Assembly (NCBI GenBank): GCA_029975435.1
Contig: JARKPC010000127.1
Span: 1 to 42,645 of the forward strand
Direction: 5' to 3'
DNA from: Propionivibrio sp.
Lineage (GTDB): Bacteria; Pseudomonadota; Gammaproteobacteria; Burkholderiales; Rhodocyclaceae
DNA length: 42,645 bases
Part shown: piece by piece, positions 11,204 to 31,896 of the stretch
How positions within the stretch are numbered: position 1 is the stretch's first letter
How the letters are laid out: each line of letters starts with the position of its first letter
The notes under the pieces: model-generated
Told to the model about the DNA's origin: nothing
Seen by the model: only the letters and a program-made list of their open reading frames with translations
Database searches by the model: none
Position numbers and translations under genes: made by a program

Positions 11204-12493
11204 ATGCCCCCGATGCCAGTTCGCCTTTCCCCCGAGTTGCTCGCCCCTGCCGGCTCCCTGGCCATGATGCGCAACGCCTTCGCTTTCGGCGCTGACGCCG
11301 TTTATGCCGGCCAGCCGCGTTACAGCCTGCGCGTGCGCAACAACGAATTCGGCAGCCTGGACAAACTCGGTCAGGCCATCTCCGAGGCGCATGGCGGCAG
11401 CAAGCTGTTTTACCTCGTCAGCAATGTGCTGCCGCACAACGCCAAGGTCCGCACCTATCTGGCCGACATGGAGCCGGTCGTTGCCCTGCGGCCGGACGCG
11501 CTGATCATGGCCGATCCCGGCCTGATCGACCTGGTGCGCGAACGCTGGCCGGAGATGCCGGTGCATCTGTCGGTACAGGCCAATACCGTCAATTTCGCCG
11601 CCGTGCGCTTCTGGCGAAAGCTCGGCGTCTCGCGCATCATCCTGTCGCGAGAACTGTCGCTCGAGGAAGTCGCCGAAATCCGCCAGGAATGCCCGGACAT
11701 CGAGCTGGAAGTTTTCGTGCACGGTGCGCTGTGCGTCGCCTACTCCGGGCGCTGCCTGCTTTCCGGCTACTTCAACCGCCGTGATTCAAACCAGGGTACC
11801 TGCACCAATTCCTGCCGTTGGGATTACAAGGTGACGGGCGCCGAGGAAGACGCCAGCGGCGACACGCATCCGGCGCGCAAGATCTGGCTGCTGGAGGAGC
11901 AGGAACGTCCCGGCGAACTGATGCCGATCGAGGAGGACGAACACGGCACGTACATCATGAACTCGAAGGATCTGCGCGCGCTGGAGCACGTTCAGCGCCT
12001 CGTCGAGATCGGTGTCGATTCACTGAAGATCGAGGGCCGTACCAAATCCCCGTACTACGTGGCGCGAACCGCGCAGGTCTATCGCCGGGCCATCGACGAC
12101 GCCGTCGCCGGCCGCCCCTTCGACCCGCGCCTGCTCGGCGAACTGGACGGCCTGGCCAACCGTGGCTACACCGATGGCTTCTACCAGCGCCACCATGACT
12201 CGGAAATGCAGAATTACCTGCGCGGTCATTCAGAGTCCGGCCGCAGCCTCTACGTCGGCGATGTCGTTGGCTGGGACGCGCAACGGGGTCTCGCCGAAAT
12301 CGACGTCAAGAACCGTTTCGCCGTCGGCGACCGCCTGGAAGTCATCCATCCGTCCGGCAACTTCGAAGTGGTGCTGGATGGGATGGAAAGTGGCGAAGGC
12401 GCGCCGATGACCGTGGCCCCGGGCAACGGCCATCGCGTTTGGATTCCGCTGCCCAGAGAATTGCCGGGCGCGCTGCTGGCGCGTTTTGTCTGA
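11204..12493 (+). CDS. trhP: U32 peptidase-family tRNA hydroxylation protein TrhP/YegQ
   Basis: A protein of about 429 residues of the U32 family. It matches YegQ/TrhP, which takes part in prephenate-dependent 5-hydroxylation of wobble uridine 34 in tRNA, rather than a true protease. Recognisable parts are LLAPAGSLAMMRNAFAFGAD at the N-terminus, the family signature around EVFVHGALCVAYSGRC, and the cysteine-rich segment GYFNRRDSNQGTCTNSCRW that is expected to hold an iron-sulfur cluster. The C-terminal beta-barrel domain spans about residues 340-429. The start is taken as the ATG at 11204; a TTG at 11192 in frame would add four residues, and no clear ribosome site separates them. The next gene starts 13 bp after the stop, so the two probably share a transcript. 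Confidence 0.9.
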   Translation: MPPMPVRLSPELLAPAGSLAMMRNAFAFGADAVYAGQPRYSLRVRNNEFGSLDKLGQAISEAHGGSKLFYLVSNVLPHNAKVRTYLADMEPVVALRPDALIMADPGLIDLVRERWPEMPVHLSVQANTVNFAAVRFWRKLGVSRIILSRELSLEEVAEIRQECPDIELEVFVHGALCVAYSGRCLLSGYFNRRDSNQGTCTNSCRWDYKVTGAEEDASGDTHPARKIWLLEEQERPGELMPIEEDEHGTYIMNSKDLRALEHVQRLVEIGVDSLKIEGRTKSPYYVARTAQVYRRAIDDAVAGRPFDPRLLGELDGLANRGYTDGFYQRHHDSEMQNYLRGHSESGRSLYVGDVVGWDAQRGLAEIDVKNRFAVGDRLEVIHPSGNFEVVLDGMESGEGAPMTVAPGNGHRVWIPLPRELPGALLARFV

Positions 12494-12506
12494 GGCGCTG
12501 CCGCGC

Positions 12507-13580
12507 ATGTCCCATCTGTTTGTCGACATCTCCTCGCATGGCTTCGGCCATCTGGCGCAGGTCTCGCCGATTCTCAACCACCTGGCGCGCATCCGCCCTG
12601 AACTGCGGCTGAGCATTCGCTCCGGACTGCCGCCGGAAAAAATGCGAGCCCGCATCGCCGCTCCGTTCGAACATCTCGCCGGGCACAGTGATTTCGGCTT
12701 TGTCATGCTCGACGCCGTGCGCATCGATCATGCGGCCACCGCCGAGGCCTACCGCGCCTGGCATGCCGACTGGCTCGGGCGCGTTGCGGCCGAGGCGGAG
12801 TCCTTGCGCCGCCTGGCTCCCGACCTGGTGCTCACCGACGTGGCCTATCTGCCGCTGGCCGGGGCGGCTGCGCTGGGCGTTCCCGCGCTGTCGATGTGTT
12901 CACTGAACTGGGCAGGCCTGTTTGACCACGTCTTCGGGCAGGAGCCGTGGGCGAGGCCGATTCATCAGGAAATCCTGGCCGCCTATCGCGGTGTCGAGTG
13001 CTTCTTGCGCCTGACGCCGGCGATGCCCATGCCTGACCTGGCGAACACGCGGAGCATCGCGCCGGTGGCCGCGCTCGGCCGCGATTGCCGCAGGGAATTG
13101 GTAGCGCGGCTGGGTGCGGCGCCGGATGAGCACATCGTGCTGGTTGCCTTCGGCGGTTTCGACAAAAACCTGGACGCTGCCTGCTGGCCGCTTATGCCGG
13201 GGGTGCGCTGGCTGGTCCCGGAAAGCTGGGGAATTGCGCGCAGCGACATGGCTGCGCTCGAACCGTTGCGCATGAACTTCACCGATCTGCTGCGCAGCGT
13301 CGACGCCGTGCTCACCAAACCCGGCTACGGCACCTTCACCGAAGCCGCCTGCAACGGCACACCGGTCCTTTATGTGCGGCGCGACGATTGGCCGGAGCAG
13401 GACTGCCTGATCGACTGGCTGGCGAAGAATGCCCGTTGCGCGGAAATCGGCGAGGCGGACCTCATGGGCGGGAGGATGCAGCCGGCGCTGGAGCAGCTGT
13501 GGCAACAAAGCCGACCTGCCGTCCCTCGTCCCGATGGAGCGGCCGAGGCCGCCGAACTGATTGCTTCCTATTTGCCGTAG
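12507..13580 (+). CDS. Glycosyltransferase-like (GT-B fold) protein of unknown substrate
   Basis: A 357-residue protein starting at the ATG at 12507; an in-frame TTG at 12486 is less likely. The N-terminus SHLFVDISSHGFGHLAQVSP has the glycine- and histidine-rich loop of UDP-sugar GT-B enzymes. The C-terminal half (VLVAFGGFDKNLD ... LLRSVDAVLTKPGYGTFTEAACNGTPVLYV) resembles the nucleotide-sugar site of MurG and other GT28 enzymes, with GYGTFTEAA as the donor-binding loop. No signal peptide or membrane helix is seen, so it is probably cytosolic. It follows the trhP-like gene by 13 bp and its last 13 bp overlap the end of the convergent PilZ-like gene. The acceptor is not known. The donor site assignment is from motif likeness only. 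Confidence 0.72.
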   Translation: MSHLFVDISSHGFGHLAQVSPILNHLARIRPELRLSIRSGLPPEKMRARIAAPFEHLAGHSDFGFVMLDAVRIDHAATAEAYRAWHADWLGRVAAEAESLRRLAPDLVLTDVAYLPLAGAAALGVPALSMCSLNWAGLFDHVFGQEPWARPIHQEILAAYRGVECFLRLTPAMPMPDLANTRSIAPVAALGRDCRRELVARLGAAPDEHIVLVAFGGFDKNLDAACWPLMPGVRWLVPESWGIARSDMAALEPLRMNFTDLLRSVDAVLTKPGYGTFTEAACNGTPVLYVRRDDWPEQDCLIDWLAKNARCAEIGEADLMGGRMQPALEQLWQQSRPAVPRPDGAAEAAELIASYLP

Positions 13581-14476
13581 TTGAGCAGGCCGGCCTTGAG
13601 TTCCAGCAGGTCGAGCGGGCTGAACGGGGACAGCCGCCCGTCGCGGATCTGCCCATCCAGCCGGATGACGCAGGTTTCCGACGAGCGCCGGATCACCGAG
13701 CCCTTGACCGAGTAATGCCGTTCGGCCTCGCCGAGCCGGATGTCGACGATCATCGCATCGCCCTTGTAAACCGGCGGGATCGCCTCGCCTTTTTCGTTCA
13801 GCCGGATGCGCAGGTCGGCGTCGGAAATGTCCACGATGGTGCACTGCCCCGAGTAATTCTCGGTCGGAACCAGCACGGTCACCGGCACATTGGTCTTGGT
13901 TCGCGGCTTCCTGCGCTGATCGCTGACTGACAGCGTGTTCAATTCTGGAGTGAGCAGGACCATGTTCATCTGCGCGTACGGGCCGTCACGCAGGACGACC
14001 TGCTTGGCGACCTCGGTATCGACGGTCGAGACACCCTTGATTCCGGCGTTGGACATCAGCGAAATGTAGTTGCCCTTGCTGAACTGCCCGTGGCGGCTGA
14101 TCTGCGCGCGGCGCAGATAGTCGAGTTTCATTTCCAGGTCGGACGTGTCGGGAACCAGCAGCTGGAACAGCTTGATTCCGGAGGCAGGAATGCGGATTTC
14201 GTTCTCGCCGGACACGAATGCAGTCGGCGTTCCGTCGGCATCGGTCTCGATCGACTCCAGCGAATAGACGAAATGGCCATTGACGCAGTAGGCCACGATC
14301 AGGGTATCGAGGACGATGTCCTTGTTGAACTCAGGGTAGTAACGCAGCTTCTTGCCGATCGGGAAAAACTCGATCAGCGTTCTGACCCGGCTCGGATCGA
14401 TCCTCGCCGCGGCGGCATGCCCGGCGTGTTCTTCCTTGGCAGAGCCCAAGTTCTTGCCAAACAGTGATTTCAGCAT
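13568..14476 (-). CDS. PilZ-domain protein with YcgR-like N-terminal domain
   Basis: A 302-residue protein likely to bind cyclic di-GMP and affect motility or surface behaviour. The N-terminal about 190 residues, from PIGKKLRYYPEFN onwards, resemble a YcgR-type flagellar-brake domain. The PilZ region starts at about residue 213 with RRKPR, fitting the R-x3-R arginine motif. The second motif reads DISDAD where D/N-x-S-x-x-G is usual, so the final glycine is Asp. That weakens but does not exclude nucleotide binding. It lies between maf and the convergent glycosyltransferase-like gene, 73 bp downstream of the maf stop. No flagellar or cyclic di-GMP enzymes are in the window, though two chemoreceptors are. 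Confidence 0.75.
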   Translation of the reverse strand: MLKSLFGKNLGSAKEEHAGHAAAARIDPSRVRTLIEFFPIGKKLRYYPEFNKDIVLDTLIVAYCVNGHFVYSLESIETDADGTPTAFVSGENEIRIPASGIKLFQLLVPDTSDLEMKLDYLRRAQISRHGQFSKGNYISLMSNAGIKGVSTVDTEVAKQVVLRDGPYAQMNMVLLTPELNTLSVSDQRRKPRTKTNVPVTVLVPTENYSGQCTIVDISDADLRIRLNEKGEAIPPVYKGDAMIVDIRLGEAERHYSVKGSVIRRSSETCVIRLDGQIRDGRLSPFSPLDLLELKAGLLNYGK

Positions 14477-14549
14477 TTCTCGCCTTCCAGCGTGCTTTAC
14501 TACGCGCAGACTCTACCGGAAAACGCGCTGCACGCCTATCGGCAACGGG

Positions 14550-15170
14550 TTATAGCGGAAATCCGAACCGCTTGAGCAACACTCCCGTTTCATGCAGCGG
14601 CAGTCCCATGACGCCGCTGTAGCTGCCGGACAGGTGTTCGACGAATACCCCGGCGCGACCCTGGATGCCGTAGGCTCCGGCCTTGTCCATCGGTTCGCCG
14701 CTGGCTACGTAGCGGCGGATGTCGCCATCGGTGAGATGGCCGAAGGTCACGTCACTGATCGACGTCGCCGATTCGATGCGGCCTTCGAAGGCTACGGCAA
14801 CCGCCGTAAGGACCTGGTGCGTCCGGCCCGACAGCCGGCGCAGGATGGCCCGTGCGTCGGCCGCGTCGACCGGCTTGCCGATGATTGCGCCGTCGAACTC
14901 GAGAGTGGTGTCGGCCGCCAGAACGATCTGAGGCATCAGCCGGCGCATTTCCACCGTGCGCCAGCCGTGTTCGGCCTTGAGACGCGCGACGCGCTCGACA
15001 TAGACCAACGGCGTTTCGCCCTCGTGGGCCGTCTCGTCGACATCGTCCTGGCGTGGCGGTGCGCGAAAGGCCAGCGTGTCGAACTGGATGCCCATCTGGG
15101 TCAGGAGTTCGCGGCGGCGCGGGCTGCGCGATGCCAGGTAGAGGCGGGGATTGCGTGTGTCGAAAGGCAT
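14550..15170 (-). CDS. maf: Maf-family nucleoside triphosphate pyrophosphatase (YhdE type)
   Basis: A 206-residue house-cleaning pyrophosphatase that hydrolyses non-canonical or excess nucleotides, probably dTTP and UTP by its YhdE-like features. The N-terminal signature LASRSPRRRELL is exact. The acidic site is seen in LAADTTLEFDGAIIGKP and the C-terminal GVMGLPLHET fits the family. It starts 5 bp after the rlmH stop and is clearly part of the nadD-rsfS-rlmH-maf string. Downstream the rng gene that often follows is displaced. Confidence 0.94.
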   Translation of the reverse strand: MPFDTRNPRLYLASRSPRRRELLTQMGIQFDTLAFRAPPRQDDVDETAHEGETPLVYVERVARLKAEHGWRTVEMRRLMPQIVLAADTTLEFDGAIIGKPVDAADARAILRRLSGRTHQVLTAVAVAFEGRIESATSISDVTFGHLTDGDIRRYVASGEPMDKAGAYGIQGRAGVFVEHLSGSYSGVMGLPLHETGVLLKRFGFPL

Positions 15171-22173: not shown

Positions 22174-23802
22174 CTAGACCCGGAAACGCCGGATCTGCGC
22201 CTGCAAGCCTTGGGCGATGTGCTCCAGCTGTGTCGCGGTGTCTGCCGTGCTGCGTATCGTCGCGGTCGTTTCCTCGACCATCTGGGCGATCTGCTCGACG
22301 CGTTGGGCGATCGAGGTGCTGGCGCTGCCCTGCTCCTGCGTGGCTTCGGCGACTTCACGGATGCGTTGCAGCGTGCGTCCGGCCCCGCTTTCGATGGACT
22401 GCAGCGATTCGGTGGCCGAACCGGCGAGCTGAACACCCTGCTCGACTTCCGGCAAGGCCTCGTTCATCGCGCCGACCGCACCGACGGTATCACTCTGGAT
22501 GCCGGCAATCATCTGTTCGATTTCGGTGGTCGCCGACGACGTCCGTTCGGCGAGCTTGCGCACTTCGTCGGCGACGACCGCGAAGCCGCGCCCCTGTTCG
22601 CCGGCGCGCGCCGCTTCGATGGCGGCGTTAAGCGCGAGAAGGTTGGTCTGCCCGGCAATATCCTTGATCACGTTGGCGATAGAGGAAATCTGCATGGCGC
22701 GCCCTTCAAGCGCCCGGATGCGCTCGGAGGCATCGGTAACGGTCGTAGCGATCTTCTGGATCGCCTCGGTCGCCTGCTTGACGCGCCCGCTGCCCTCGCT
22801 GGCCAGATGCATCGCCTCGCGCGAATCGTTCTCGGTGTCGCGCGCGCTGTCCGAGATGTGCGTCGAGCTGACGGTCAGCTCCTCGATCGCGGCGGCCATC
22901 GCCGAGGTCGCGTCGGCCTGCTGGTTGGCCGCGGTGGAGACTTCATTCGACGCGCGGTTGATCTGCTCGGCGTTGTCGACGAGCTGTGTCGCGCTGCTGT
23001 CGATCTGGCTGACCAGTTCGCGCAACGAGGCGACCATGGTGCCTAACGCGTGCAGCAGGCTGCCCGGCGGTGCTGTATTGACCGAGGCGGTCAGGTCGCC
23101 GTCGGCGACGCGTTGCATCACCGCCACAGCGTCGGTCGGCTCGCCACCGAGTTGCCTCAGCACGCCGGAGGCGATCCGCCAGCCGACGATGATCAGCAGG
23201 ATAATGAGGACGACCGAAACGCCACCGAGGACGATTGCGGTGCGGCGGAACTGGGTGTCGACGTCATCGATGTACACGCCCGTTCCGACAACCCATCCCC
23301 ACGGCTTGAACAGGGTCGCGTAGCCGAGCTTCGGTTCCGGCTTCTGCTGTCCGGCGCGCGGGAACCAGTACTCGACGAAGCCGCCGCCATTTTTGGCCGC
23401 CGCGACGAGCTCCTGAATCAGCAGTTTGCCGTTGGCATCCTTCATGTCCGCCTTGTTCTGGCCCTCGAACTCGGTCCGTGGAGGAAGCAGCACGTAGTTG
23501 TGATTGGTATCGAGGATGAAATAGTAGTCGTTGGTGCCGTAGCGCACGTTGCGCAGGCTTTCCTTGGCAGCCAGCATGGCGTCCTGATCGGAAATCTTGC
23601 CGCTTTGCGCCAGCTTGTGATGGTGCTCGAGGACGCCCACGCTGACTTCGATGAGATTCCTGGTCTTTTCCTTGCGGTCTTCGAGCATCCCGTTCTTGAG
23701 TTGCAGCAAGGCGAGGATGCAAAGCACGAGCAGTCCGACCAGCGTCAGCCCGATAAGCAACTGCATGCGCGTGGAAACGCGCAAGGAATTGAGTCCGCCC
23801 AT
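22174..23802 (-). CDS. Methyl-accepting chemotaxis protein with periplasmic Cache domain
   Basis: A 542-residue transmembrane chemoreceptor. The start at 23802 is preceded by GGGAGA at ideal spacing; an upstream ATG at 23841 lacks this. A first membrane helix (about 12-33) is followed by a single-Cache type periplasmic domain (about 35-185) with [31 protein letters not shown] and [24 protein letters not shown]. These patterns are common in sensors of short carboxylates. After a second helix (about 190-212) comes HAMP, then the signalling domain with [23 protein letters not shown] at the hairpin tip. There is no C-terminal CheR-docking pentapeptide. The ligand is unknown. Confidence 0.92.
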
Positions 23803-23959
23803 GTCTGTCTCCCAGTGACCTCTGTTTGTCGGTGCATCCACTGTCCATTAAATCCGAGCCGAGGAGGATAGGCAACCGATTTACGGCGGTTCTTCAATGA
23901 TGGAGCTGATGGACGTTGCACCGTCTCGACAGCCGTCGTGTCCGAACAGTGCGGCGTAA

Positions 23960-25000
23960 TCAGCCGATGTGCAGCGCCAGGTCGCTTTTCGCCGTCGCGC
24001 TGCACGCCAGCACGTAGCCGGCGGAGACGTCCTCGGGGCTGAGCGGTACGGCGCTGGTCGTTGCCACTTTGCCCTCGACGATCTTGCACTTGCAGGAACC
24101 GCAAACGCCGGTGCGACAGGCGCCGATGATTGGCAGTCCTTCGCGCTCGAGGACGTCGAGCAGCAGTTCGCCGGCGGCGATTTCGGCGCTCCTGCCGAAT
24201 GCCGGCACATGGAGGCTGAAACGCTCGCCTCCTGCTGGTGTGGCGGCGCGGACCGGCAGGAAATTCTCGCGGCGCATCGCATCGTCGGCCATGCCCGAGG
24301 CGCGCAGCCACCCGCTGACGGCGTCCATGTAGGCGTCCTGGCCGCACAGGTAGGCGCGCGTGTCTTTTCCTCGCGGGAGCAGCGCCTGCAGGCGAGGCGC
24401 GTCGAGACGGCCATGATGGCCGGCGATACGTCCCCGCGGGCGCGTGAGGAAGAGATGCAGCTTGAGGTTCACGTGCTGCTGCGCCAGCGCCAGCAATTCG
24501 TCGGCGAAAATGAAGTCGTCTTCGCTGCGTGCGCTGTGGAAGAAATGGATGTCGGTCGCCGCTCGGGTTTCCAGCAACCAGCGCGTCATCGACATCATCG
24601 GCGTGATGCCGCAGCCGGCCGAGAACAAGGCGAGACTGGTCGGCACATCGCCGGGTCGCAGCGCGAAATCGCCGGCCGGCGGCAGCGCAGGGATCTCGCA
24701 CCCGGCGTGCAGGTTGTCGAGCAGCCAGTTGGACACGAGTCCGCCGGCCACCCGCTTGACCGTGATCGAAAGCGTTTCGGGGCGGGCCGGACTGGACGAA
24801 ATAGAGTAGGCGCGCCAGTGCATTTTCCCGCCGATTGCCGCGCCGACCGACACGAACTGCCCCGGCAGGAAATGGAAGAAGCGCCCGGCCGGTTCGGCAA
24901 GAACGAACGTCGCCGCGTCACGCGTTTCCTCGATGCGTTCGACGCAGACGAGCGGCGATTCGTCCTGCCAGAAGAGTTGGTGTTCTGCGATGGTGTTCAT
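23960..25000 (-). CDS. hcr: NADH-dependent reductase of hybrid cluster protein (Hcr)
   Basis: A 346-residue flavo-iron-sulfur reductase that passes electrons from NADH to Hcp. The FAD domain comes first (RAYSISSSPARPETLSITVKR holds the RxYS flavin motif), followed by the NAD domain (LFSAGCGITPMMSM, YLCGQDAYMD). A C-terminal plant-type 2Fe-2S ferredoxin domain has C-x4-C-x2-C (CRTGVCGSC) and a fourth cysteine in LACSA. This order is that of Escherichia coli Hcr. The start at 25000 is the only ATG that gives the family N-terminus; no good ribosome site precedes it. hcp lies 140 bp upstream on the same strand, with a nested palindrome between. Together they reduce nitric oxide or repair S-nitrosylation under anaerobic nitrosative stress. 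Confidence 0.93.
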   Translation of the reverse strand: MNTIAEHQLFWQDESPLVCVERIEETRDAATFVLAEPAGRFFHFLPGQFVSVGAAIGGKMHWRAYSISSSPARPETLSITVKRVAGGLVSNWLLDNLHAGCEIPALPPAGDFALRPGDVPTSLALFSAGCGITPMMSMTRWLLETRAATDIHFFHSARSEDDFIFADELLALAQQHVNLKLHLFLTRPRGRIAGHHGRLDAPRLQALLPRGKDTRAYLCGQDAYMDAVSGWLRASGMADDAMRRENFLPVRAATPAGGERFSLHVPAFGRSAEIAAGELLLDVLEREGLPIIGACRTGVCGSCKCKIVEGKVATTSAVPLSPEDVSAGYVLACSATAKSDLALHIG

Positions 25001-25140: not shown

Positions 25141-26805
25141 TCAGGCGGCCAGCATTTCCTTGAGGTCGTCCTCGACGTTCGAGACGAGGCGCAGGCCGAA
25201 CTTCTGGTTCAGGATGCCGATCAGGTTCGGGGTCAGGAATCCGGGCGCGGTCGGACCGACGCGGATGTCCTTGATGCCGAGCGACAGGAGCGTCAGCAGG
25301 ATGACGATGGCCTTCTGCTCGAACCACGACAGTACCAGCGACAGCGGCAGTTCATTGACGCTGCAGCCGAAGGCATCGGCCAGCGCCAGCGCCAGCTGGA
25401 TCGCCGAGTAGGCGTCGTTGCACTGGCCGATGTCGAGGAAACGCGGGATGCCGTTGATGTCGCCGAACTCCAGCGTGTTGAAACGGAACTTGCCACACGC
25501 CAGCGTCAGGATCAGGGCATCCTGGGGAACGGCCTTGGCCAGATCGGTGTAGTAGCTGCGCTGGGTCTTGTCGCCGTCGCAGCCGCCGATCAGGAAGAAG
25601 TGCTTGATGTTGCCGGCCTTGACCTGTTCGATGACGGCCGGGGCGGCGCCCATCAGCGCGTTGCGGGCGAAGCCGGTGGTGGTGTAGACCGGTGCCGCGT
25701 CGGCGGCAAAGCCCGGTTGCGCCAGCGCGGCCTCGATGGCCGGGGTGAAATCGCTGCCGTCGATGTGCGTTACGCCGGGCCAGCCGACGATGCTGCGCGT
25801 GAAGATGCGCGCGCCATATTGCCCGACGTTCGGGTCGATGATGCAGTTGGAGGTCATCACGATGGCGCCCGGGAAGGCGCCGAATTCCTCCTGCTGGTTC
25901 TGCCACGCCGTGCCGTAATTGCCGACGAGGTGCGGGTACTTCTTGAACGCCGGGTAGGCGTGCGCCGGCAGCATTTCGCCGTGCGTATAGACGTTGATGC
26001 CCTTGCCTGCGGTCTGTTGCAGGATCAGTTCGAGATCGTGCAGGTCGTGGCCGGAAACGACAATGGCCTTGCCCTTGATCGGCTGCGTGTTGACGCGCGT
26101 CGGCTCGGGATGGCCGAAGGTCTCGGTCTCGCCCGTGTCCAGCATTTCCATGATCCGGTAGTTGAGCGTGCCGATGTCCATCGCGCACTGGAACAGCGCG
26201 CCGGCGTCGGCTGGTTGCGTGCCGAGGAAGGCCATGAATTCGTGGAACCTGCCGGCGACGTCGGCATCGGTCTGGCCGAGCACACGGGCGTGCTCCATGT
26301 ATGCGGCGGCGCCCTTGAGGCCGTACAGGCACAGGAGGCGAAGGCCGATCACATCCTCGCCGACTTCCTTCTTCTGGCGGTTCAGGGCGAACGACAGGGC
26401 GTCGCTGAGCATCACTGTCTTGGCGTCCGGCAGCCGGTAGTGTGCGGCTGACGGCAGTTTTTCCGGCGTGACGTCCTGCGCGGCGCAGGCCGATTCATAG
26501 CGGGCGCGCAGATCGTTGCGGCAGGTCTCGGCGCGGCGGCCGAAGTCGATGATGCGCTCGGCGTCGAAGTTGACGTTGGTCAGCGTCGAGAAGAAGGCCT
26601 GCGGGACGTAGGCATCGATTTCCGCGTCGACGATCCCGACCTTGCGCGCCGCGACGGCGTACGTCGACACGGCTTGCAGCAAATGCACCAGCATGTCCTG
26701 CAGGTCGGAAACTTCGCTGGTCTTGCCGCACATGCCGCGCGCAAAACTGCAGCCGGCATCGCCTTGAGGGGTACGGATGGTGTGTTCACATTGCACGCAA
26801 AACAT
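25141..26805 (-). CDS. hcp: Hybrid cluster protein (Hcp), nitric oxide reductase / S-nitrosylase
   Basis: A 554-residue iron-sulfur protein once called hydroxylamine reductase, now known as a high-affinity NO reductase and protein S-nitrosylase in anaerobic cells. The N-terminal cluster cysteines are in [12 protein letters not shown] and [10 protein letters not shown]. Ligands for the hybrid 4Fe-2S-2O cluster can be placed in [32 protein letters not shown] and [11 protein letters not shown]. The length agrees with Escherichia coli Hcp (550). The ATG at 26805 follows GAGGAA (26811-26816). Upstream are a sigma-54 promoter and three NorR-type sites, so NO-triggered expression through the NorR encoded at 30355-31896 is likely. 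hcr follows on the same strand. Confidence 0.96.
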
Positions 26806-26843: not shown

Positions 26844-26862
26844 TATCGCGAAGAGCGTGCCA
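26844..26862 (-). promoter_or_regulatory. Sigma-54 (RpoN) promoter of hcp
   Basis: Read on the minus strand, TGGCACGCTCTTCGCG begins at 26862. The -24 element TGGCAC is perfect; the -12 element is TCGC in place of TTGC. The invariant GG (26861-26860) and GC (26849-26848) are exactly 10 nt apart, as sigma-54 requires. Transcription would begin near 26837, leaving a leader of about 32 nt with the GAGGAA ribosome site. Confidence 0.8.
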
Positions 26863-26916
26863 GACTTCCAACTAATTGATTGTTAATAAAATGGCTGTCA
26901 TGACAAAGCGAAACGA

Positions 26917-26972
26917 GTCAATGTGACACGGCTGTCGCTTGAGTCTATATGACTCTTGTGTGTCGAATTGAC
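26917..26972. promoter_or_regulatory. Three NorR-type enhancer sites (GT-N7-AC) upstream of hcp
   Basis: GTCAATGTGAC (26917-26927), GTCTATATGAC (26943-26953) and GTCGAATTGAC (26962-26972) all fit GTC-N5-GAC and so the GT-N7-AC core known for NorR. The first is the most symmetric, GTCA-N3-TGAC. They are centred about 85, 111 and 130 bp upstream of the predicted sigma-54 start. Three NorR sites upstream of a sigma-54 promoter is also the arrangement known at Escherichia coli norVW. A further TGTCATGACA lies at 26896-26905 without the spacer. Binding by the local NorR is inference. Confidence 0.72.
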
Positions 26973-26978
26973 TCTGCG

Positions 26979-27710
26979 TCAATAGCGCAGCACGCGGGCG
27001 AGGAAATTGACGAGCAGGGGGTGTTGCGGATTGGCGAACACGTCAGCCGAGGGCCCGTGCTCGAGCACCCGGCCGTTAGCGATGAACACGCAGCGATCGG
27101 AGACCTCGCGGGCGAAGCCCATGTTGTGCGTGACGATGATCAGGTCGCGTCCTTCGTCACGCAGTTCGGCGATGAAATCGAGAACCTCGGCGGTCATTTC
27201 CGGGTCCAGCGCGGAAGTCGGTTCGTCGAAAATGAGGAAGCGCGGCTTGATGGCGATGGCCCGCACGATGGCCACCCGCTGCTGCTGGCCGCCGGAGAGT
27301 TCACCCGGCCGCTGGTGGGCGTGCGCGGCGAGGTGGAAGCGCTCGAACAGGGCGCCGACGATCTCCTGCGCTTCCTGCGTCGCCAGTCCGTGCACCTTGA
27401 CCAGCGGCAACATGACGTTTTCCCGCGCGGTCAGGTGGGGAAACAGGTTGTAGGCCTGGAATACCGTGCCGATGCTGCGGCGGTGCGAGAGCAGCGCTTC
27501 CTCGGAGAAATCCAACGGCTGGCCGTTGATGCTCAGGGTTCCGGTCTCCGGCGTGGTCAGACCGGCGATGATGCGCAGCAGGGTGGTCTTGCCTCCGCCG
27601 GACGGGCCGATGATGGCCAGCGACTGGAAATCCGAGAGCGAAAGCGTGACATCGCGCAGCGCGTGCTGCTCTCCAAATTGTTTGCCGATGGCGCACAGAT
27701 CAAGTCGCAA
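26979..27710 (-). CDS. Polar amino-acid ABC transporter, ATP-binding protein (GlnQ/HisP type)
   Basis: A 243-residue ATPase that powers the importer. Walker A GPSGGGKTT is at about residues 34-42, the Q-loop is in VFQAYNLF, the signature is LSGGQQQRVAIVRA and Walker B is FLIFDEPTSALDPE, with the switch histidine in VTHNMGFA. The pattern is that of the polar amino-acid transport subfamily. No ATG lies near the N-terminus; the start is a TTG at 27710, supported by GGAG about 9 nt upstream. The first 11 bp overlap the permease gene. The stop codon is only seven bases from the outermost NorR-type site of hcp, with no terminator between, so read-through into hcp is possible. Confidence 0.93.
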   Translation of the reverse strand: MRLDLCAIGKQFGEQHALRDVTLSLSDFQSLAIIGPSGGGKTTLLRIIAGLTTPETGTLSINGQPLDFSEEALLSHRRSIGTVFQAYNLFPHLTARENVMLPLVKVHGLATQEAQEIVGALFERFHLAAHAHQRPGELSGGQQQRVAIVRAIAIKPRFLIFDEPTSALDPEMTAEVLDFIAELRDEGRDLIIVTHNMGFAREVSDRCVFIANGRVLEHGPSADVFANPQHPLLVNFLARVLRY

Positions 27711-28479
27711 AGTGGAATCTCCGTTCCAGCGTGCGGCTGATCAGCGAGATCGGCAGCGTCAGCAGAAGGTAGCCGGCCGCCAGCGGCAGATAGCTTTCCA
27801 GCGTGCTGTAGGTGAACGCGTTGACCTCCTGCGCATTGAGGGTGAACTCGCTGACGGCGATGATCGACAGCAACGACGAATCCTTGATAATCGAGGCGAA
27901 CTGGCCGGTCAATGGTGGAATGAGCTGGCGCACCACCTGCGGGAAAATGACGTAGCGGTAGGTCTGTGCCGTCGTCAGTCCGATGGCCCGCGCCGATTCG
28001 AGCTGCGAATCGCGAATGCTTTCGATGCCGGCGCGGATCATCTCGGACAGGTAGGCACCGGCGAACAGCGACAAGGCGAGCACGCCGACGATATAGCGGT
28101 TATCCACGCCGAAAGCATTGGCCACGACGTAGAAGAGGATCAGTATCTGCACCAGCAACGGCGTGCCGCGGATGGCTTCGACGTACAGCGTGGCGGAGTA
28201 GCGCAGGGGCAGGAAGGCCGAGCGCCTGGCCAGCGCGGTGAGCACTCCGATCAGCAGGCTGACCAGAAGCGAGGCGGCGGAAATCGCCACGGTCATCAGC
28301 CATCCCTGCAGGAACTTCTGCCGGTACTGCCAGATGGCATCCCAGTTCCAGCCGTAGAGCAGCTGGCTGAAGGCGAAGCTGAAGACCGCCGCGGCCAGCA
28401 CGGCGACCAGTCCCCATGAAACGACCTGCGCGGCGCGCGCTATTGGCCGTCCCTGCGTCGGCGCGAAGAAAAAATCCAA
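27700..28479 (-). CDS. Polar amino-acid ABC transporter, permease (HisMQ type)
   Basis: A 259-residue inner-membrane permease with about five to six helices. After a first helix (about 18-42) comes the typical domain starting GWLMTVAISAASLLVSLLIG. It includes EAIRGTPLLVQILILFYV and the EAA loop ESARAIGLTTAQTYRYVIFPQ, which contacts the ATPase. Such importers use either one permease as a homodimer or two; only one is present here. The start is a TTG at 28479, 16 bp after the stop of the binding-protein gene; no ATG or GTG gives a better N-terminus. The ATPase gene overlaps its end by 11 bp. Confidence 0.92.
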   Translation of the reverse strand: MDFFFAPTQGRPIARAAQVVSWGLVAVLAAAVFSFAFSQLLYGWNWDAIWQYRQKFLQGWLMTVAISAASLLVSLLIGVLTALARRSAFLPLRYSATLYVEAIRGTPLLVQILILFYVVANAFGVDNRYIVGVLALSLFAGAYLSEMIRAGIESIRDSQLESARAIGLTTAQTYRYVIFPQVVRQLIPPLTGQFASIIKDSSLLSIIAVSEFTLNAQEVNAFTYSTLESYLPLAAGYLLLTLPISLISRTLERRFHFAT

Positions 28480-28495
28480 GAGGAGCCCGCCCGGA

Positions 28496-29290
28496 TCAGA
28501 GGAAGAAGGCCGAACCGAGCCGCTTGAACTCGTCCTTCATCTCCTTCAGGTAGCGGTCGCCCAATCGCTCGAAGCCGCCCTTTTCGCGGTAGTCCTTGAT
28601 GAACGCGTTGACCTTGGCCTTCAGCTCATCGTTGCCCTGGCGAATGCCCACGGCCCATGCTTCCTTCTGGAAAGGTTCGAGGATCGCCCGCGTGGTGGCC
28701 TGGTTGCGCTGCCAGTTCTGGTAGGTGGACATCTGGTCATAGATAAAGGCGTCGGCCTTCCCCTGCGAAACCTCCAGCACTGCGGCCGACTCCTTGTCCA
28801 GAACCAGGATTTCGGCTTTCTTCAGGTTGCCGGTAGCATACAAATGCCCTGTCGTCCCTTTCTTGACGGCCACCTTCACGCCTGGCCGGTCGAGGTCGGC
28901 AATGCCCTGCGCGGTCGAATCCTTCTTCAGCAGCAGGCACAGGCCGGTCGATATGTAAGGATCGGAGAAATCGATCGACTTGGCGCGCTCGGCCGTCGCC
29001 GTCATCGAAGAAATGACCAGGTCGACCTTCCCGGTTTTCAGCGCCGGAATCAGGCCGTCGAAGGAAATGTTCTGGATGACTGCCGGCCGGCCCAGGTATT
29101 TTGCCAAATCCTTGGCGATATCGACGCTGACGCCGGAGGGCTTGCCGCTCTGGTCGGTCATCTCGAACGGAGGATAGGCCAGTTCCATGCCGACAATCAG
29201 CGGCTTGGCCTTCTCGGCGGCGGAAGCAGGAAGCACCAACATCAGGAGGACGGCGATCGCTGCCATGAACAACTGTCGACTCGGTTTCAT
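28496..29290 (-). CDS. Polar amino-acid ABC transporter, periplasmic substrate-binding protein
   Basis: A 264-residue solute-binding protein of the SBP_bac_3 family. Residues 1-24 are a signal peptide ending in PASA. The mature part begins KPLIVGMELAYPPFEM with the usual GxxxxYPPFE pattern and includes DLVISSMTATAERAKSIDFSDPY, which holds the ligand-binding Thr/Arg/Asp positions. The ligand is probably a polar or acidic amino acid or amide, but glutamine, glutamate and arginine cannot be told apart by eye. The start has AAGGAG at good spacing. It is first of the three-gene operon. Confidence 0.92.
   Translation of the reverse strand: MKPSRQLFMAAIAVLLMLVLPASAAEKAKPLIVGMELAYPPFEMTDQSGKPSGVSVDIAKDLAKYLGRPAVIQNISFDGLIPALKTGKVDLVISSMTATAERAKSIDFSDPYISTGLCLLLKKDSTAQGIADLDRPGVKVAVKKGTTGHLYATGNLKKAEILVLDKESAAVLEVSQGKADAFIYDQMSTYQNWQRNQATTRAILEPFQKEAWAVGIRQGNDELKAKVNAFIKDYREKGGFERLGDRYLKEMKDEFKRLGSAFFL

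Positions 29291-30354: not shown

Positions 30355-31896
<1,542 letters not shown>

Follow-up and report, generated by a model that had tools for sequence, protein, structure and literature searches.

The closest described counterpart of the locus analysed here comes from Vibrionales. Control of hcp-hcr by the regulator NorR2 was predicted for this order by Rodionov et al. 2005 (PMC1274295), who also state that the NorR1 and NorR2 sites differ. In that arrangement, norR precedes hcp-hcr, two tandem palindromic NorR sites of the form GATGT-N7-ACATC lie upstream of a sigma-54 promoter, and a single site is found before norR2. Another case is the hcp-hcr-norR cluster of Methylobacter, for which NorR control was proposed in 2020. 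The authors of that paper (PMC6977074) call NorR control of hcp-hcr unique to their knowledge. This uniqueness is contradicted by the Vibrio prediction and by the loci presented below. NorR-hcp wiring in itself is not new, given the 2005 prediction for Vibrionales. The Methylobacter cluster resembles the present locus in containing a NorR gene; the organism is a methanotroph outside the groups compared here, and the likeness is one of gene cluster and proposal alone. Hcp acts as a NO reductase according to PMC10210160.

The E. coli NorR-norVW system (L098) has three GTC-type sites spaced by 21 and 24 bp and a sigma-54 promoter at an offset of 66. Its target is norVW, and its norR gene is divergent from the target. 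In Cupriavidus necator (Ralstonia eutropha), norAB is the NorR target named in the literature. The norR-norAB region on pHG1 (L180) contains three GGT-N7-ACC operators at an offset of 51 from a sigma-54-like promoter, and the targets are ytfE(norA) and norB. For enterobacteria and some betaproteobacteria, control of hcp by FNR/DNR or NsrR has been predicted.

The window, by which we mean the whole stretch of DNA analysed, comprises 42,645 nucleotides of a Propionivibrio contig. It shares with Vibrionales the order of norR and hcp-hcr, palindromic NorR sites in tandem ahead of a sigma-54 promoter, and a NorR of the same clade. It differs in having three GTC-N5-GAC sites, the recognition helix DRANLQRL where five Vibrio NorR2 proteins have DRGNLYRM, no site found before norR, and an ABC transporter operon between norR and hcp. 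The paired Vibrio operator was not found at hcp, and only the regulator lineage and the target are the same. The site type, site number and promoter offset resemble those of E. coli norVW. The promoter shares the element TCGC with that of pHG1, whose norR-norAB region is the counterpart of a second NorR of this genome and not of the NorR in the window. Neither the betaproteobacterial and Aeromonadaceae cases nor the operator replacement described below were found in the open-licence literature that was searched.

The hcp leader

The features of the window that are relevant to this work are listed below.

30355..31896, minus strand: norR (NorR2 type); NF003451 at 707 bits against a cut-off of 476; GAF domain, AAA+ domain with GAFTGA and Fis-type HTH (Pfam); in a clade with hcp-linked NorR including Vibrio
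26962..26972, minus strand: predicted NorR operator 1 (distal), GTC-N5-GAC; exact match, position kept in relatives
26943..26953, minus strand: predicted NorR operator 2, GTC-N5-GAC; exact match, position kept in relatives
26917..26927, minus strand: predicted NorR operator 3 (promoter-proximal), GTC-N5-GAC; exact match, position kept in relatives
26869..26881, minus strand: IHF-like site AATCAATTAGTTG between operators and promoter; 0 mismatches to WATCAANNNNTTR
26847..26862, minus strand: predicted sigma-54 promoter TGGCACGCTCTTCGCG; 9/11 consensus positions, GG-N10-GC kept; 65 bp from operator 3
25141..26805, minus strand: hcp, hybrid cluster protein, 554 amino acids; NF003658 at 767 bits against a cut-off of 367; PF03063; 754 bits to PDB 7de4
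23960..25000, minus strand: hcr, flavin/2Fe-2S reductase, probable operon partner of hcp; PRK10684 NADH oxidoreductase at 215 bits, below the cut-off of 383; FAD, NAD and Fer2 domains

The leader is intergenic. The upstream ABC gene ends at 26979, and the ATG of hcp lies at 26805 on the minus strand. The three predicted operators are spaced by 19 and 26 bp. The preliminary description of this DNA had placed GT-N7-AC sites at 26917, 26943 and 26962, and all of these coordinates are exact. It had also reported a near-perfect sigma-54 promoter at 26862. The coordinates and the GG-N10-GC spacing stand, while the adjective is a little strong for a score of 9/11, the departures from the consensus being TCGC for TTGC and G for A/T.

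A score of 9 is reached at 13 places in the window, the hcp promoter among them, and the promoter alone is therefore not significant. The bare core GT-N7-AC occurs 100 times in the window. Core and promoter score each mean little alone; it is their combination that is informative. The hcp leader contains both, with three GT-N7-AC sites in tandem ahead of a promoter of the GG-N10-GC form. When the 173-bp leader was shuffled with its dinucleotides kept, 459 of 20,000 shuffles contained three bare GT-N7-AC sites. None of 20,000 contained three GTC-N5-GAC sites, and none contained the full layout of triplet and promoter. The pair pattern GTC-N5-GAC-N5..20-GTC-N5-GAC was found at 12 places in the 4.39-Mb assembly, against 3 for the reversed control pattern. 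Only in the hcp leader do two pairs chain into a triplet, as judged on an assembly that is 82% complete and with a pattern blind to GGT-type sites.

The IHF consensus used for the leader was WATCAANNNNTTR, and a perfect match to it on either strand was present in 23 of 3000 leader shuffles. Among 11 relatives, the closest such sequence within the 120 bp preceding hcp had 0 mismatches in three, 1 in six, 2 in one and 3 in one, at varying positions.

Conservation of the layout among relatives

The relatives are the best 80 of 586 loci from one contig scan with the Hcp of the window. A detector requiring three sites at 17–22 and 22–28 bp, and a promoter score of at least 9 at 45–75 bp, was run on both strands of the window and of these loci (L002–L081; 2.46 million strand-bases). 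It returned 18 matches, 17 of which are at hcp leaders. The remaining one lies beside the norR gene of L010, on the strand opposite to norR. The 17 hcp leaders have spacings of 18–20 plus 24–27 and a promoter offset of 63–68. The triplet is present in 16 loci of these best 80 of 586 and absent in 64, of which 48 are from Shewanella.

A search for the three-site pattern in related genomes had been proposed as a check of the preliminary description. The layout was found in 12 of the 13 hcp loci treated as betaproteobacterial (L002–L013 and L017, where L005 is named only 'Proteobacteria' and was placed by the Hcp tree). The exception, L011, comes from a genome in which the NorR search gave no protein over the cut-off. 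Likewise, neither a triplet nor a NorR over the cut-off was found for L014, named Alphaproteobacteria, and L015, Rhodopseudomonas. Nine hcp genomes were searched for NorR via their loci, and the three without NorR over the cut-off (L011, L014 and L015) are the same three that have no triplet. In the Tolumonas/Aeromonadaceae loci (L016, L018–L021) the layout was found in four of five; in the hcp leader of L020 two sites are kept but the third is degenerate, and the detector missed it. In L016, L018, L019 and L021 the element TGGCAC is kept, and the −12 element is TTGA or TTGT instead of TTGC. Six Vibrio/Enterovibrio loci (L064, L069, L072, L073, L075 and L080) have a pair of sites at a distance of 23 bp and a promoter score of 10, as published for Vibrionales.

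The NorR protein of the window

The product of the gene at 30355–31896 exceeds the curated NorR cut-off (NF003451). In the alignment with E. coli NorR, the residues corresponding to R75, D96, D99, H111, C113 and D131 are kept. Y98 is replaced by F in this protein and in the six other hcp-linked NorRs of the alignment, and R81 is not kept. According to PMC2941729, the iron centre of E. coli NorR is disrupted by the changes R75K, Y98L, C113S, H111Y and D99A. The gene had been described as encoding a NorR with intact GAF sensing residues and a GAFTGA loop; the loop and the six residues bear this out, and 'intact' has to be qualified for Y98. The loop reads GAFTGA in this protein and GSFTGA in L017.

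In a tree of 30 NorR proteins, the NorR of the window groups with the other NorRs that are linked to hcp in betaproteobacteria and Aeromonadaceae. This whole group joins Vibrio NorR2, which places the protein in the Vibrio NorR2 lineage. The clade including Vibrio NorR2 has 18 rows and a support of 100/99, with E. coli NorR outside; the E. coli row is flagged as long-branched and its place is unsure, and four of the five Vibrio rows are flagged as unlike in composition.

The norR gene is linked to hcp-hcr, as is NorR2 of Rodionov et al. 2005. In L005, L006, L007, L013 and L017 it immediately precedes hcp in the same orientation, with its stop codon 161–204 bp from hcp. The distance is about 1.2 kb in L003 and L004 and about 3.5 kb, on the same strand, in the window. 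The polar amino-acid ABC transporter operon at 26979–29290 stands between the two genes in the window and in L002, and in no other compared locus. The roughly 200 bp that precede norR were searched for GT-N7-AC sites that would point to autoregulation; none was found in the window and in seven of eight relatives, and L013 has one isolated site.

The family sample comprised 199 genomes, including the one studied here; Hcp was matched in 11 and NorR was over the cut-off in 13. All five family genomes with an Hcp of at least 80% identity have a NorR over the cut-off, and none of the six with a weaker Hcp (at most 68% identity, or fragments) does. Judging by length, the contigs of at least three genomes among the five with NorR (G141, G144 and G074) are those already counted as L003, L007 and L017, and the set is not independent of the loci above. 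RpoN is present in the genome.

Two NorR types and their operators

Two NorR proteins over the cut-off are encoded in the genome. The gene of the second, on contig C183, stands opposite ytfE and a hemerythrin gene, with three GGT-N7-ACC sites between them. The ytfE-side promoter scores 11/11, and the protein shares 64.9% identity with C. necator NorR on pHG1. The recognition helices of the two proteins differ, being DRANLQRL in the NorR of the window and DASNLHKL in that of C183. The half-sites of hcp are GTC in 6/6 and GGT in 0/6 cases, and those of ytfE are GGT in 6/6 and GTC in 1/6.

This pairing was followed in chosen loci with a detector match and a promoter score of at least 8, leaving out L124 and the Vibrio two-site promoters. 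Among these chosen loci, GTC half-sites (4–6 of 6) accompany a helix of the form DRANL[QHLN]RL, with the variants DVANLHRL in E. coli and DRGNFHRL in L125, and GGT half-sites (also 4–6 of 6) accompany D[AP]SNLHKL. There is no exception among the rows with a helix read, which exclude the NorR of L019, whose frame ends otherwise, and the NorR beside norB in L181 and L182. L124, for which no triplet is reported, has the NorR helix DRGNFHRL. GTC operators were found in both the hcp-linked lineage and the GAFSGA lineage. Operator type is therefore tied to the helix and not to the clade alone.

Three loci depart from the GTC type at hcp. In L008, L009 and L010 the three-site layout is kept and the operators are GGT-like. 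The genomes of these loci each yielded one NorR over the cut-off, and all three proteins have GAFSGA and DPSNLHKL. The expectation that only the SNLHKL type would be found was set before the search result for the L008 and L009 genomes; the NorR of L010 was already known from its locus. Three Tolumonas genomes carry both NorR types, and the half-sites of hcp in L016 and L018 are mostly GTC (4/6). In the Hcp tree (the window and 32 of the 80 loci, with L020 labelled as GTC three-site despite its degenerate third site), the three GGT-type hcp genes stand among the GTC-type ones as one group with the weak support of 86/65, beside the site-less L011. This suggests that operators changed from GTC to GGT while the layout and the promoter offset of 63–64 bp were kept.

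We propose that the NO response is split between two NorR paralogues, each with its own operator code, the RANL type using GTC-N5-GAC and the SNLHKL type GGT-N7-ACC. A lineage without the hcp-type NorR would have kept the three-site layout and the offset, and its operators would have become those of the remaining NorR, a natural rewiring on a fixed promoter architecture. We regard this proposal as reasonably likely, given that the replacement case comprises few independent events in chosen loci and that the half-sites of L008 and L009 are degenerate (GGT 4/6). Another two-code pair is possible in the genomes G182 and G070 (L116, L119, L181 and L182), each of which has two NorR genes, with GTC operators beside one and GGT operators before norB near the other.

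Proposed control of hcp-hcr

On the basis of sequence comparison, the leader is very probably a NorR-dependent sigma-54 enhancer-promoter for hcp-hcr. In the model, NorR2 would sit on the three GTC-N5-GAC sites and be kept inactive by its GAF domain. By homology to the NorR proteins of E. coli and C. necator, NO would bind to the GAF iron and the AAA+ domain would be released. The GAFTGA loop, possibly aided by an IHF bend, would then open sigma-54 RNA polymerase at 26862, the predicted start region of a putative hcp-hcr transcript. Hcp, acting as the literature describes, and Hcr would then reduce NO to N2O. The earlier proposal that NO is wired directly to hcp-hcr via NorR and sigma-54 is thus well supported by comparison, namely by the layout, the adjacency of norR and hcp in relatives, the NorR2 clade and the operator type following the NorR type. 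Against it, the leader contains an FNR-like box, described below, norR and hcp are parted by the ABC operon, Y98 is F and R81 is not kept, and the second NorR could also bind.

This last point leads to the reading in which the triplet at hcp is bound by the C183 NorR or by both paralogues, and hcp and ytfE form one regulon. Both genes are present in the genome, both operator types have the GT...AC core, and in the genomes of L008–L010 a single NorR type matches both promoters. However, the operator sets of hcp and ytfE differ in this genome, each set agrees with the operators that adjoin the corresponding NorR type in other loci, and the two proteins have different recognition helices. We consider a shared regulon unlikely. 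Still less probable is that hcp is mainly under FNR/DNR or NsrR, with the NorR sites playing a minor role. The leader does contain an FNR/DNR-like box, TTATTAACAATCAA, with 2 mismatches and overlapping the IHF-like site, and two 1-mismatch boxes close to norC elsewhere in the genome indicate that such a regulator probably acts in the cell. The hcp box is, however, weaker than those at norC; a box as good was reached by 358 of 3000 leader shuffles, and it may be due to chance, though it may also add a further layer of control. As for NsrR, a protein 46% identical to E. coli NsrR is encoded on contig C105, but its score of 124 bits does not reach the NsrR cut-off of 182 bits. The NsrR palindrome was not found in the hcp leader, where the best match has 6 mismatches, and NsrR control of hcp was rejected on this ground. 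Control by any of these regulators would also leave the conservation of the NorR layout unexplained. From their frequencies in the window, one could imagine that a weak, common core and a weak promoter came together by chance, but the absence of the layout from 20,000 shuffles, the specificity of the detector for hcp leaders (17 of 18 matches) and the conservation across families make the probability of such an origin negligible, and it was rejected.

With NorR-dependent control of hcp-hcr as the preferred reading, the NorR control of Hcp predicted for Vibrionales is extended to betaproteobacteria and Aeromonadaceae. It points to Hcp as a primary NO-induced enzyme in these bacteria, which fits its proposed role as a NO reductase, and it has a bearing on NO and N2O handling in Propionivibrio-like anaerobes. 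The pairing of paralogue and operator would amount to a simple code of NorR specificity that can be tested, and the GGT-type hcp promoters offer a case of promoter rewiring with both the before and the after state.

Other NO-response genes and the neighbourhood of hcp

Hcp-Hcr had been regarded as the detoxifying output of the NO signal. This is not supported for the genome, in which the second NorR facing ytfE and the hemerythrin gene and a cNOR cluster are also present. The remark that no norB is encoded is valid for the window, about which it was made, and fails for the whole genome. A norC-norB-norE-norQ-like cluster was found on the separate contig C105 (L157, G000:C105:98000-114000, positions 11423–15037). 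Its NorB matches the cNorB 3o0r_B of the PDB at 766 bits, by which the statement that this genome has no NO reductase is rejected, and is flanked by NorC-, NorE- and NorQ-like genes; NCBIfam gives it no name, and Pfam only COX1. A qNorB query found no NorB in the congeners G105 and G141 (97–98% complete), and the same query found the cNorB of this genome with an E value of 2.3e-23. NorV was not found in the genome, with a query that had no positive control, and neither was a full-length Hmp, the matches being partial (from query residue 177 on) and the best one being Hcr itself. Both absences are weak evidence, because the assembly is 82% complete.

A NorR triplet was searched for at the cNOR cluster and none was found. 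The 16-kb stretch contains three distinct FNR/DNR-like boxes with 1 mismatch, and two of these fall within the 77 bp that precede norC. Control of norC by FNR/DNR is plausible from these boxes.

Downstream of hcp, an hcr homologue follows in 18 of the 20 loci L002–L021, the exceptions being L007 and L015. In the window, hcr is followed by a gene at 22174–23841 on the minus strand encoding a chemoreceptor with a single Cache domain (sCache_2). This gene also adjoins hcr in L002 and lies about 1.1 kb further on in L003, and it might be co-transcribed with hcp-hcr.
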